Assembly: GCA_009787085.1 (NCBI GenBank)
Contig: WRGR01000041.1
Span: 1 to 64,000 of the forward strand
Source: Actinomycetes bacterium
GTDB lineage: Bacteria > Actinomycetota > Coriobacteriia > Coriobacteriales > UBA8131
DNA: 64,000 nucleotides
Reading direction: 5' to 3'
The position numbers were made by a program, and so were the translations under genes. A model generated the notes under the pieces. The model saw nothing but the letters and a program-made list of their open reading frames with translations, ran no database searches and was not told the origin of the DNA. Below, one piece after another: positions 11,274-23,804 of the stretch; positions within the stretch are counted from its first letter, which is position 1, and each line of letters starts with the position of its first letter.

Positions 11274-13031
11274 TCATTGCCCGGCCGCCGATGGTGCCGC
11301 CCCTGCGCCCGTCGCCGCCGCTGCCCCTGCGCCCGTCGCCGCCGCTGCCCCTGCGCCCGTCGCCGCCACTGCCGCTGCGGAGCCCAACGCCAGCACCGCG
11401 CCCTTGTCTGCCGAGAGCACGCTTTGCTGGTAGCGCCTCAGATAGCCTTTGAGCGCGGCTTGGGGCTTGAGCGGTGTGCTCTGCCGCCGCCGCTCGATCT
11501 CGCCCTCCCCTACCAACAGCTCGATCGAATAGTTATTGATGTCGATGCTGATCTGGTCACCGTCTTGGATGTAGGCGATCAGGCCGCCGGCAGCGGCCTC
11601 TGGGGAGATATGACCGATGGCCGCGCCCCTAGTAGCTCCGGAGAAGCGCCCGTCAGTGATCAGGGCAACGTCAGCATCCAGCCCCATGCCGGCAATAGCC
11701 GAGGTGGGCGAGAGCATCTCCCGCATACCCGGGCCACCGGCCGGTCCCTCGTAGCGGATCACCACCACGTCGCCTTTCTTGACCTGCTGGCCATAGATAG
11801 CCTGAATCGCCTCTTCCTCGCCATCGAAGACCCGGGCGCTACCGGTGAAGCACATCATCTCTGGCTTCACAGCGGAGCGTTTGACCACCGCGCCGCAGGG
11901 GGCGAGATTGCCAAAGAGCACGGCCAAGCCGCCAGAGGCCGCATAGGGGCCAGCACAGCTCCTGATGACCTCAGCATCAAGGATCGTCATGCCTTGAACA
12001 GCCTCACCAATGCTCTGACCACTGACCGTGCGGCAGCTGCGGTCAATCAGCCCAGCACTCACCAGCTCGGCAATCACAGCATAAACCCCGCCGGCGGCAT
12101 CCAAGTCTTGAATGTGATGGGCACCGGCAGGTGCCAAGCGACAGAGGTTCGGGGTCTTCTCGCTGATCTCGTTGACCGTCTTCATCTCGATGGCCATACC
12201 GCACTCGTTGGCAATGGCGATCAGGTGCAGCACGGAGTTGGTGGAGCAGCCCAAGGCCATATCGACAGTCAGGGCGTTGCGGAAGGCCGCCGCGCTAAGT
12301 ATTGCCGATGGCCGCAGGTCGAGCTGCCAAAGCTCCATCACTTGGCGGCCAGTCACCTTGGCCAGCCGGGTGCGTTTGGCAGAGACTGCCGGGATGGTGC
12401 CGTTTCCCGGCAAGGCTAGGCCGATAGCCTCGGTGAGGCAGTTCATGGAGTTGGCCGTGAACATACCGGAACAAGAACCACAGCCCGGGCAGGCGCTGTC
12501 TTCGATGTCTGCCAGGGCAGCCGCATCGATCTGCCCGGAGACACAGGCCGCCGCAGCCTCGAACACCGTGTTCAGGTCACGCGACTTCTCCGAGAGCATT
12601 GGGCCTCCGGAGACAAAAATGCAGGGCAAGTCGAGACGTGCCGCCGCCATCAGCATCCCCGGTACAGTTTTGTCGCAGTTCGGGATGAAGACCAGAGCGT
12701 CGAAAGCATGGGCACGAGCCATGCATTCGACGCTGTCAGCGATCAACTCCCGCGAGCAAAGCGAGTACTTCATACCCTCATGGCCCATGGACAGGCCATC
12801 GCAGACGGCGATGGTGTTGAACTCCATCGGCGTGCCACCGGCCTCCAAAACGCCGTCTTTGACCGCTCGGGCAATCATGTTCAACTGGTAGTGTCCTGGC
12901 ACCACCTCGTTAAAGGAATTGACAATGCCGACCAATGGCTTTTTGATCTGCTCGTCAGTGTAGCCAACAGCCTTCAGCAGCGCCCGTTTCGGCGCATTCT
13001 CCACCCCAGTTTTCATGACATCGCTTTGCAA
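11274..13031 (-). CDS. ilvD: Dihydroxy-acid dehydratase
   Basis: Third common enzyme of isoleucine/valine synthesis; dehydrates dihydroxy acids to 2-keto acids using an Fe-S cluster and Mg. 585 residues. Cluster and active-site motifs: [11 protein letters not shown] near residue 119, [18 protein letters not shown] near residue 187, and a C-terminal [15 protein letters not shown] segment. The start [18 protein letters not shown] is typical. It is the last gene of ilvB-ilvN-ilvC-ilvD, 112 bp after ilvC. Oddity: after the normal end (about residue 550) there is a tail of near-perfect ATGAGAAA repeats, encoded by 24-bp units at about 11293-11370, which the family does not have. Confidence 0.97.
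11293..11370. repeat. 24-bp tandem repeats encoding the IlvD tail
   Basis: About three units with core GCCCCTGCGCCCGTCGCCGC in direct order. On the minus strand they encode an Ala/Gly/Thr tail of eight-residue repeats beyond the normal end of IlvD. The unit length keeps the frame. Confidence 0.85.
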
Positions 13032-13143: not shown

Positions 13144-14139
13144 TCAGTCCTCGGCCTTCCAGCTCATCTTCTGGCGCAGCTCCCGACCGACCTGGTTCAC
13201 CGGATGATCAGCCTCGATGCGTCGCTTGGCCAGAAACGAGGGGCTGCCAGCCTTGTTCTCCAGTATCCAGCTGCGGGCAAACTCGCCGTTTTGTATCTCT
13301 TTGAGAACTTGTTTCATCTCCTTTTTGGTATCTTCGGTGATGATCCGACTGCCAATTGAGTAATCGCCAAACTCAGCGGTGTCGCTGACCGAGTAGCGCA
13401 TGAAGTCCAAGCCGTCTTGCACCACCAAGTCGATGATCAACTTCATCTCGTGGATGCATTCAAAATAGGCGCTTTCCGGCTGATAGCCGGCCTCCACCAA
13501 AGTCTCAAAGCCTGCCTTCATCAGAGCAGTGACACCGCCGCAAAGCACCGCCTGCTCACCAAAGAGGTCGGTTTCCGTCTCTTCTTTGAAGGTGGTCTGA
13601 AGCACGCCTGCCCTAGCACCGCCAATTCCGGCGGCATAGGCCAAGGCAATGTCACGGGCATTGCCGCTGGCATCCTGATAAACGGCCACCAAGCAGGGTA
13701 CGCCCTTGCCTTCGACAAACTGGCTGCGCACAGTGTGACCAGGACCTTTGGGAGCGATCATAACCACATTCACCGAATCCGGCGGCACGATCTGGTTGAA
13801 ATGGATGTTGAAACCGTGTGCGAAACATAGCGTCATGCCGTCGCGTAGGTTAGGGGCGACACTGCTCTCATACAAAGCTGCCTGCTTCTCATCGTTGACC
13901 AACATCATAACTACGTCGGCCTGTTTGGTGGCCGCATCGGCATTGAGCACCTGAAAGCCATCGGCAGTGGCACGCTCTGCGCTTTTCGAACCCTCGTAAA
14001 GCCCAATGACCACATTCAGACCGCTGTCCCGCAGGTTCTGGGAATGGGCATGTCCCTGGCTGCCGTAACCGATGACCGCGATGGTCTTGTTCTTGAGCAA
14101 GGAGAGGTTACAGTCTTTCTCATAATACATAACTGACAT
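13144..14139 (-). CDS. ilvC: Ketol-acid reductoisomerase
   Basis: Isomerises and reduces acetolactate or acetohydroxybutyrate with NAD(P)H and Mg. 331 residues, class I (short) length. Nucleotide fold [19 protein letters not shown] near residue 22; the catalytic domain has [19 protein letters not shown] with the metal-binding acidic residues near 190 and [10 protein letters not shown] near 250. It follows ilvN by 125 bp in the operon. The cofactor loop after the Rossmann motif ([11 protein letters not shown]) has Ser residues of the kind usually linked to NADPH preference; this is inference. Confidence 0.97.
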
Positions 14140-14264: not shown

Positions 14265-14789
14265 TTAGCCAATCCGAAAAGCGTCATCAACACTCAACAC
14301 GTTGTCAAGACCGTGGCTCAGGGCGATGCTGCCGCTGCGGCAAAGCTCCATGATCCCCAGCGCCTCGGCCTTGCAGATAAACTCGTCGATCTTCTCCGAT
14401 GGCCCAGTGATCTCGGTGGTAATGAATGTCTCGCCGAAATCCATGACCCTGCCGCCGTAAGAGTTGATCAGCGAACTGATCGCAGCCTTACCGTTGCCTT
14501 CGGCTCGCATCTTGATCAGCATCTGCTCGATACCAACCATGTTACCATTCTCCAATAACATCACCAGCTTGACATCGTGCAGCTTCTGCAGTTGTCGTTC
14601 CACCTGCTCTTTCATGTAGTCATCGCCTGTGGAGACAATCGTGATTCTTGAGTACTGAGGGTTCTCCGTGACCCCGACGGCCAAGCTGTCGATGTTGTAG
14701 CCGCGCTTGGCATACAGCCCGGCCACCCGGTTCAAGACACCGGCATGGTTGGCCACGATCAGGCTGACTGTGAACTTCTTATCCATCAT
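14265..14789 (-). CDS. ilvN: Acetolactate synthase small (regulatory) subunit
   Basis: 174 residues. An N-terminal ACT domain begins FTVSLIVANHAGVLNRVAGL, where valine feedback inhibition is sensed, followed by RGYNIDSLAVGVTENP. The C-terminal domain contains GGRVMDFGETFITTEITGP. It partners the large subunit IlvB, whose gene ends 6 bp upstream, so the two are surely co-translated. The full-length small subunit (about 160-175 residues) is the form typical of Gram-positive bacteria. Confidence 0.97.
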   Translation of the reverse strand: MMDKKFTVSLIVANHAGVLNRVAGLYAKRGYNIDSLAVGVTENPQYSRITIVSTGDDYMKEQVERQLQKLHDVKLVMLLENGNMVGIEQMLIKMRAEGNGKAAISSLINSYGGRVMDFGETFITTEITGPSEKIDEFICKAEALGIMELCRSGSIALSHGLDNVLSVDDAFRIG

Positions 14790-14795
14790 CTCACC

Positions 14796-16499
14796 TCAAT
14801 CCACCATGATATCGCTGACAGCACCGCCGGGTGGGATCATCGGCAGCACTTCTTCATTGACATCGATCTTGCAGTCAATCAGATAGGGGGTATCACTCGG
14901 CAGCTTTTGGCTAAGAATCTCCATCAGTTCCTCCAAGCATGCAGCCTGGCTGCCTGCGGCACCAAAAGCCTGAGCCAACAGCGAAAAGTCAGTCTTCCTG
15001 TCCAAGGTGGTCTGCGAGAAACGGCGCTCGTAGAAGCGTCCCTGCCATTGGCGAACCATACCCAAAACCCCATTGTTCAGCAAGACAATGACCAAGGGCA
15101 GCTTTTGGCTGACTGCCGTCGCCATTTCGTTTAAGTTCATGCCGAAGCTGCCGTCACTGGTAAAAAGAACCGTTCGCTTGCAGTTTTTGGCCATGCAACC
15201 ACCGATCGCCGCCCCTAGGCCATAGCCCATAGCACCCAAGCCTCCGGAGGTCAGCAGGGTATGCGGCTTTTCAAAGGGATAACTTTGAGCCACCCACATC
15301 TGATGCTGGCCAACATCGGTAGCCACTACCGTGTCGTCACCCAGCGCCGCATGCACGCTACGGATGATATTTTGCGGAGTGAAGCCGGTGCGGAACGGAA
15401 TTTTCCGCATCTCTTCTTGTTTCAGCTGGTCGATGTGGGCCATCCACTGCTCGTGCGGTAACAGCGGAAGCTTGGCGAGCAGTGCGCTCAGCACTTCCTT
15501 GACGCCGCCACAAAGCCCAATCGTCGCCGCCACGTTCTTGCCGATCTCAGCCAAGTCGATATCGATATGGATGATCTTGCATTTCTTGCGGTACTCGTCG
15601 ATGTTGCCAGTCGCCCGGTCGCTGAAGCGGACGCCGACTGCCACCAGCAAGTCAGCCTCGGACTGGGCGACAGTCGCAGCATAACGCCCGTGCATACCGC
15701 ACATGCCAAGGTTTAGGGGGTAGGAGTGCGGCACTGCGGTCAGACCCATCAGGCTAAGGCCGATGGGTGCCGTCAGGCGGTGGGAGAGCTCCAGTATCTC
15801 GGCTTCAGCATGTGCCGCCAAAACCCCGCCACCGCAGTAGATAAAAGGCCGCTCGCAGCTTTGGATAGCGCTGAGAGCCTCTTCCAGCTCGGCCGGGTCG
15901 AGCGGTTTGGCGGGCGATAGGGCAACTGACTTGGCGGACGGCATGGTGATCTGCCCGACCGCTGAACGCGGCTGCTGCCCCAAGTACTCAGCCATAGCAG
16001 CCTGGATATTCTTCGGGACATCAATCAGCACTGGGCCTTTGCGACCAGCATTAGCAATCCGGAAAGCCTCGCGGATGGTCGGCTCCAAATCCTCTACTTC
16101 CCGAACCAAGAAGCTATGCTTGACCACTGGCTGGGTGATGCCGATAATGTCTACCTCTTGGAAGCTGTCACGGCCAAGCAGGCCGGTGGGAACGTTGCCA
16201 GTGAAGGCGACGACCGGAACAGAGTCCAGATAGGCGTTGGCAATACCGGTTACCAAGTTGGTTGCCCCCGGCCCGCTGGTGGCAAAAACCACACCGGTCT
16301 TGCCCGATGCCCGGGCATAGCCGTCAGCAGCGTGGGCAGCACCCTGTTCGTGGGCACTGAGCACGTGCTGGATACGGTCGGAGCTTTTGTAAAGCTCGTC
16401 GTAAATGTTGAGCACTGATCCACCCGGGTAGCCGAAGATGGTTTCCACTCCCTCACTGATCAAAGTCTCGATTAGGATTTGCGCTCCGTTCATCTGCAT
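14796..16499 (-). CDS. ilvB: Acetolactate synthase large (catalytic) subunit
   Basis: ThDP- and FAD-dependent enzyme that starts branched-chain amino acid synthesis. 567 residues. It shows IFGYPGGSVLNIYDEL near residue 21, HEQGAAHAADGYARASGK with the catalytic Glu near residue 50, and the ThDP signature GDGSFGMNLNEMATA near 450 followed by LLNNGVLGMVRQWQ. The start ATG 16499 has a GGGAGG ribosome binding site. First structural gene of the ilvBNCD operon; it lies about 110 bp downstream of an attenuator hairpin. Confidence 0.98.
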   Translation of the reverse strand: MQMNGAQILIETLISEGVETIFGYPGGSVLNIYDELYKSSDRIQHVLSAHEQGAAHAADGYARASGKTGVVFATSGPGATNLVTGIANAYLDSVPVVAFTGNVPTGLLGRDSFQEVDIIGITQPVVKHSFLVREVEDLEPTIREAFRIANAGRKGPVLIDVPKNIQAAMAEYLGQQPRSAVGQITMPSAKSVALSPAKPLDPAELEEALSAIQSCERPFIYCGGGVLAAHAEAEILELSHRLTAPIGLSLMGLTAVPHSYPLNLGMCGMHGRYAATVAQSEADLLVAVGVRFSDRATGNIDEYRKKCKIIHIDIDLAEIGKNVAATIGLCGGVKEVLSALLAKLPLLPHEQWMAHIDQLKQEEMRKIPFRTGFTPQNIIRSVHAALGDDTVVATDVGQHQMWVAQSYPFEKPHTLLTSGGLGAMGYGLGAAIGGCMAKNCKRTVLFTSDGSFGMNLNEMATAVSQKLPLVIVLLNNGVLGMVRQWQGRFYERRFSQTTLDRKTDFSLLAQAFGAAGSQAACLEELMEILSQKLPSDTPYLIDCKIDVNEEVLPMIPPGGAVSDIMVD

Positions 16500-16609: not shown

Positions 16610-16643
16610 AAAAAACAAGCCTCACAGTTTTGGCTGTAAGGCT
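16610..16643 (-). terminator. Attenuator (terminator) hairpin of the ilv operon
   Basis: On the minus strand AGCCTTACAG (16643-16634) pairs with CTGTGAGGCT (16627-16618) around a short loop, followed by a T-rich run at 16616-16610. This is a Rho-independent terminator between the leader peptide and ilvB. Its first arm can instead pair with the leader segment GTAAGGCT at 16708-16701, giving the mutually exclusive antiterminator. Confidence 0.85.
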
Positions 16644-16673
16644 CGTGTGTGTTGAGTTGGTATGAGGTATCGT

Positions 16674-16772
16674 CTAACTTTTTCCAGCACAACCCAAAAC
16701 AGCCTTACCGCCGCCAGCGGTAATGCCTACTACTACGATTGTGCCCAACAAAGAGTGCTGCATCTGACGCAT
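16674..16772 (-). CDS. ilv leader peptide (transcription attenuation)
   Basis: A 32-residue frame, ATG 16772 to TAG 16674, reading HSLLGTIVVVGITAGG in its centre. Two Leu, one Ile, three consecutive Val (GTA, an unusual codon choice in this GC-rich DNA) and a further Ile match the end products of the operon, as in known ilv leaders. Right after the Val run come segment 1 (TTACCGC, 16723-16717) and segment 2 (GCGGTAAGGCT, 16711-16701), which pair with each other. Segment 2 also pairs with the first arm of the attenuator. This is the classical 1:2, 2:3, 3:4 layout. The ribosome binding site is weak. An overlapping frame from ATG 16788 lacks such codons. Confidence 0.8.
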   Translation of the reverse strand: MRQMQHSLLGTIVVVGITAGGGKAVLGCAGKS

Positions 16773-16815
16773 CTGACCAATCTTTCATAACTCCAAAGGA
16801 AAACACTGCCCAAGA

Positions 16816-16844
16816 ACTTTACAGTCAATCAGCCGCCCTGTCAA
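16816..16844 (-). promoter_or_regulatory. ilv operon promoter
   Basis: Minus strand TTGACA (16844-16839), 17-bp spacer, TAAAGT (16821-16816). The expected transcript start near 16809 leaves about 37 nt before the leader peptide ATG, a sensible leader length. Confidence 0.7.
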
Positions 16845-23715: not shown

Positions 23716-23804
23716 TATCTTTTCCGGTCATCTGGCTCGCCCCACAGGGGCACACAGCGGCGGCACCACACGGGATTCACACCCGTTTCCCACGGTAAAG
23801 ATAT
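23716..23804 (-). promoter_or_regulatory. Cobalamin riboswitch (aptamer)
   Basis: On the minus strand ATATCTTT (23804-23797) and AAAAGATA (23723-23716) close the outer stem. Between them are the family's conserved pieces: GGGAAACGGGTGTGAATCCC, then GGTGCCGCCGCTGTG, then the B12 box GCCAGATGACCGG (about 23736-23724). The transcript continues about 140 nt to the DUF4430 start, space enough for an expression platform. A GC-rich segment followed by GGGGGTTTTTGTTTT near 23625-23600 may form a terminator, but I cannot fold it with confidence. Expected effect: repression of the transporter operon when cobalamin is plentiful. Confidence 0.85.

Follow-up and report, generated by a model that had tools for sequence, protein, structure and literature searches.

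A predicted leader-peptide attenuator upstream of ilvBNCD, likely responding mainly to valine

The ilvBNCD operon lies on the minus strand of the window (the whole 64,000-nt stretch of DNA that was analysed). Upstream of it we find a promoter-like site, a short open reading frame (ORF) rich in BCAA codons, four short segments capable of alternative pairing and an intrinsic terminator ~110 nt 5′ of the operon (Table 1). An earlier note made from the sequence alone had described these parts, and each lies where it was placed: the promoter, the 32-codon leader containing LLGTIVVVGI and three GTA codons in a row, and segments 1 to 4 with the T run. The promoter agrees with the consensus at 10 of 12 positions and is the sole match in 800 bp, with 0.4 expected. 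Valine, leucine and isoleucine make up 9 of the 32 residues of the leader peptide, including IVVV at residues 12–15. In leader numbering, the GTA codons occupy nt 37–45 and segment 1 nt 50–56; segment 2 starts at nt 62 and the stop codon is at nt 97–99.

Table 1. Features of the ilvBNCD leader region and operon in the window.
Feature	Positions	Strand	Basis
Sigma-70-type promoter, -35 TTGACA, 17-nt spacer, -10 TAAAGT	16844-16839; 16821-16816	-	Consensus match
GGAG, sole Shine-Dalgarno-like site	16791..16794	-	9 nt from in-frame ATT (16781), 18 nt from ATG 16772
Leader peptide ORF, 32 codons plus stop, MRQMQHSLLGTIVVVGITAGGGKAVLGCAGKS	16674..16772	-	Sequence; like leaders in 11 other family genomes
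Control codons GTA GTA GTA (Val13-15), immediately 5′ of segment 1	16728..16736	-	GTA codon bias
Segment 1, TTACCGC, partner segment 2	16717..16723	-	Fold and compensation across relatives
Segment 2, GCGGTAAGGCT, partner segment 1 or 3	16701..16711	-	Pairing and covariation
Segment 3, AGCCTTACAG, partner segment 2 or 4	16634..16643	-	Pairing
Segment 4, CTGTGAGGCT, terminator 3′ arm	16618..16627	-	Terminator prediction
Intrinsic terminator stem, 13 pairs, then T run	16646-16615	-	Sequence
T run of terminator	16610..16614	-	Sequence
ilvB, acetolactate synthase large subunit, first gene of operon	14796..16499	-	NCBIfam TIGR00118 above cut-off
ilvN, acetolactate synthase small subunit	14265..14789	-	NCBIfam TIGR00119 above cut-off
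ilvC, ketol-acid reductoisomerase	13144..14139	-	NCBIfam TIGR00465 above cut-off
ilvD, dihydroxy-acid dehydratase	11274..13031	-	NCBIfam TIGR00110 above cut-off

The spacing of GGAG suits the in-frame ATT better than the ATG at 16772, which has no well-placed Shine-Dalgarno sequence (−2.2 kcal/mol) and is therefore only a putative start. A 9-bp tandem duplication, GTCAGATGC-GTCAGATGC, spans the leader start (16777–16760, minus strand), so that the start codon is doubled (ATG 16772 and 16763). Among relatives, the Shine-Dalgarno sequence is recognisable or better in most, and several leaders have TTG or GTG as their start codon, downstream of AAGGAG-like sites.

The pairings 1:2, 2:3 and 3:4 had been called mutually exclusive and exact. 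Exclusive they are; exactness holds for 1:2, in which segment 1 (16723–16717) pairs with 16711–16705 of segment 2 (7 bp, 8 in the fold), but not for the other two, as the 2:3 duplex consists of 8 contiguous pairs, one G/A mismatch and 3 further pairs, and the 3:4 duplex carries one U–G inside the quoted segments. Calculated energies are −13.7 kcal/mol for the 1:2 duplex, −19.6 kcal/mol for the 2:3 duplex and −18.0 kcal/mol for the terminator fold. RNA folding, which the earlier note had suggested as a check, returned 1:2 plus 3:4 as the minimum-energy structure of the leader, and the whole-leader fold surpasses 199 of 200 dinucleotide shuffles in stability (z = −2.8). Against such shuffles, the 2:3 pairing of the window leader gives p = 0.013, and the identical test yields 0.002 for thrL and 0.064 for ilvL, both proven attenuators of E. 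coli K-12. Individual 2:3 p-values are modest, and that of the window falls inside the range of proven E. coli attenuators. Permuting synonymous codons inside the window leader gave no significant result (p = 0.28), the few codons leaving little to permute.

Equilibrium folding of the window leader with all four segments present favoured the terminator at every ribosome position modelled and showed no switch. Folded free, the proven attenuators thrL and ilvL of E. coli behave similarly, with terminator values of 0.96 and 0.85; because these controls fold alike, we count stalled-ribosome folding neither for nor against attenuation. As the terminator wins at equilibrium in every state, antitermination would have to be kinetic.

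Because one sequence alone could not settle the antiterminator, we turned to relatives. The family of the source genome comprises 33 genomes in 19 genera, 26 of which (genomes) have a strong ilvB match. A leader ORF rich in BCAA codons, with an intrinsic terminator behind it, precedes ilvB in 12 of them, from eight genera (the source genome of the window and L003, L005, L006, L007, L008, L009, L019, L120, L121, L122 and L132), the terminator being present with all 12 leaders; examples of the peptides are MRLSKVINVVVSVAGVVASAAGGLRDKVSQS (L132) and MLLFANIIVVLLVGLLIIGTGSPRRAAELI (L003). About half of the ilvB genes of the family are without a leader, in many cases owing to a different gene immediately upstream or to an ilvB of more distant lineage. 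Outside the family, like leaders with terminators precede ilvB in Oribacterium sinus, Oligosphaera, a Lentisphaerae MAG and several Clostridia. In the Lentisphaerae MAG (L040), two BCAA leader ORFs, each with a terminator, lie in series from ~430 to 40 nt 5′ of ilvB, a possible tandem attenuator.

The earlier note had pointed to relatives as the place to look for conserved leader codons and compensatory stem changes, and they supply both: BCAA leaders in the 12 family genomes, and compensation in the 1:2 and 2:3 stems. From a MAFFT alignment of the 12 leaders, RNAalifold retrieved no more than part of the terminator, so the arms were paired by hand on the same alignment. With arms picked in this way, which favours the covariation figures, 55 of 56 pair positions of the 1:2 stem hold across eight diverged leaders, whereas re-dealing the 3′ arms gave a mean of 44.6 and reached 55 in none of 20,000 trials; for 2:3, 70 of 90 pairs hold across ten leaders, a score equalled in 163 of 20,000 re-deals. 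Two-sided changes occur at six of the seven 1:2 positions, for example C–G to T–A at position 7 and G–C to C–G at position 5. In a comparison with arms that were not hand-picked, the pairing of leaders with their own segment 3 surpassed that with the segment 3 of other genomes (p = 0.0015 when each family cluster contributed a single leader; p = 5e-5 across all 20 leaders). What is conserved among the leaders is the BCAA content of the peptide, the codon choice and the pairing; loop and linker sequences vary.

The codon choice is specific. In the family genomes, GTA accounts for 48 of 68 valine codons (71%) in the leaders versus 40 of 409 (10%) in ilvB, with a Fisher p of 8e-26 that overstates the evidence because related leaders are not independent. 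The bias is seen in 12 of 12 leader genomes; across the genes of the window, GTA makes up 6% of valine codons. The tRNA-Val anticodons found in the source genome are UAC, GAC and CAC, and by standard decoding GUA is read solely by the UAC anticodon. Since GTA is both favoured and read by one tRNA, valine, and its UAC isoacceptor, is likely the main signal, and the strong preference for an otherwise rare codon strengthens the earlier proposal that valine plays this part. More tentatively, and with somewhat less than even confidence, we suggest that the leader monitors how well tRNA-Val(UAC) is charged and not the whole valine pool, GTA being otherwise the rarest valine codon and yet kept across eight genera. 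In the selective-charging model, codon rarity alone is insufficient to explain which codon is the best sensor (PMC1183508). The ilvB leaders of two MAGs from outside the family, L043 and L040, use GTA for 6 of 9 and 3 of 9 valine codons, compared with 4% and 7% in their ilvB genes; this over-use suggests that the codon choice may be recurrent.

The features seen in the sequence (a promoter, a BCAA-rich ORF carrying GTA-GTA-GTA just 5′ of segment 1, a set of three mutually exclusive stems and a terminator before ilvB) very probably make up a leader-peptide attenuator, of the ribosome-mediated type, that governs transcription of ilvBNCD chiefly in response to valine. With ample charged tRNA-Val, the ribosome would reach the stop codon; because this codon lies beyond segment 2, a finishing ribosome would let 1:2 re-form behind it, the 3:4 terminator would then form and transcription would end before ilvB. 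With charged tRNA-Val (UAC) scarce, the ribosome would stall at Val13–15, covering segment 1 and leaving segment 2 free. A ribosome footprint extends ~14 nt ahead of the A site, so a ribosome at Val14–15 would cover most or all of segment 1. The free segment 2 would pair with segment 3 before segment 4 is made, and transcription would go on. Ile12 and Ile17, together with Leu8 and Leu9, are possible weaker inputs.

Several other readings were weighed against valine-responsive attenuation. The hairpin could be an ordinary constitutive terminator serving the upstream phosphate-transporter and DUF47-like genes, with the ORF and the stems coincidental: it is a strong intrinsic terminator, those genes are co-directional and the Shine-Dalgarno sequence of the leader start is poor. 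The hairpin, however, lies ~300 nt beyond the upstream gene and past the promoter-like site; leader, stems and terminator are kept before ilvB in 12 genomes with covariation; and the GTA bias would be left unexplained. We consider this reading highly improbable. The same very low standing goes to a reading in which the RNA senses a metabolite or tRNA (as a ppGpp riboswitch, a T-box or an aptamer of some other kind) in place of the ribosome. Although ppGpp riboswitches and T-boxes are frequent ilv regulators in other bacteria, and the source genome has a T-box match before trpE, an Rfam search of the leader returned no T-box, ppGpp riboswitch or other relevant element, and the conservation lies in peptide content, codon choice and pairing rather than in loops and linkers. 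T-box RF00230 had no match in the window. A match of the leader to rnk_leader at a permissive Rfam threshold, at 25 bits versus a cut-off of 50, was rejected as chance. The only Rfam family above its cut-off in the window is a cobalamin riboswitch at 23726–23791 (minus strand).

It is also conceivable that the leader ORF is real and acts otherwise, for instance through re-initiation or by sensing slow translation in general, without valine-specific stalling. Leucine and isoleucine codons are present too and the initiation signal is weak; moreover, a comparable arrangement did not stand up to experiment in Streptomyces coelicolor, where mutation of leader codons upstream of ilvB was without effect (reviewed in PMC1262725). 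Against this, transcription attenuation needs just such a terminator and compensated alternative stems, and the GTA enrichment is strong and specific. We regard such action as unlikely, if a little less so than the two readings above, and retain a valine-responsive attenuator as the preferred one.

Comparison with known systems places the locus among several relatives in design. E. coli ilvL, which precedes ilvXGMEDA, shares a BCAA-rich 32-codon leader, 1:2, 2:3 and 3:4 stems and a terminator just 5′ of a BCAA operon, but its valine codons are mostly GTG where the window leader has GTA; the likeness of the two peptides may be convergent. For Corynebacterium, Mycobacterium and Streptomyces, candidate leader peptides of ilvB have been predicted (PMC1262725). 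Tests were made in Corynebacterium, where an ilvB-II motif reporter is repressed in rich medium (PMC10272879). These leaders share a BCAA-rich uORF and a terminator before ilvB; they belong to other lineages and exactly how they regulate was called unclear (PMC1262725), whereas the explicit alternative stems of the window system covary. The ilvB-OMG and Leptospira ilvB motifs (PMC10272879) likewise have BCAA-rich uORFs before ilvB; the window leader matches no Rfam 15 model. In S. aureus, ilvD has a Leu-rich attenuator peptide (PMC5794164), with a terminator and an antiterminator before a Gram-positive BCAA operon as here; that peptide is Leu-centred and its operon is also under CodY, unlike the Val-centred window leader. 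For leader-peptide attenuation under the name stem Coriobacteri-, nothing was found among open-licence papers, judged by titles and abstracts, and a search for a leader-peptide attenuator before ilvB in Clostridia found no paper.

The family probably belongs to Coriobacteriia (Actinomycetota), because its RpoB gives a single uninterrupted alignment (62%) to an Atopobiaceae MAG and fragmented ones to Clostridia; the 23S rRNA insertion was unusable as a taxonomic sign, as no LSU rRNA was found. The nearest IlvB sequences from named genomes are from Clostridia and Lentisphaerota, several of them also with such leaders, which suggests that the ilv operon may have moved between phyla, together with its leader.

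Elsewhere in the source genome, leuA (contig C38, L137:1219-1317) has a Leu-rich leader of its own, with a TTG start behind AAGGAG and the peptide TASQKTLFLIISLPSLLISDGLYWHVARQRS, followed by a terminator, CCCCTGCGGCAAGTGCCGCAGGGG. Two further genera of the family have leaders of similar sequence before leuA (L144 and L146); the antiterminator of the source-genome leuA leader, tested alone, was not significant (p = 0.23). By its predicted layout, this leader is a second leader-peptide attenuator, a device of the same kind. A T-box-like RNA adjoining trpE (L119, contig C22:6503-6818) scores 63 bits, below the cut-off of 93, and is the sole T-box match of the genome. As predicted from these elements, the source genome mixes T-box and leader-peptide control.

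Ribosome-mediated attenuation is a textbook mechanism, to which the window locus adds a well-supported predicted case in a poorly studied family. It bears on the question of which synonymous codons sensitise attenuators, the rarest valine codon being favoured about sevenfold here. Classical attenuation for valine (ilvB) and leucine (leuA) would thereby be placed, beside a predicted tryptophan T-box, in a family for which we found no such report.
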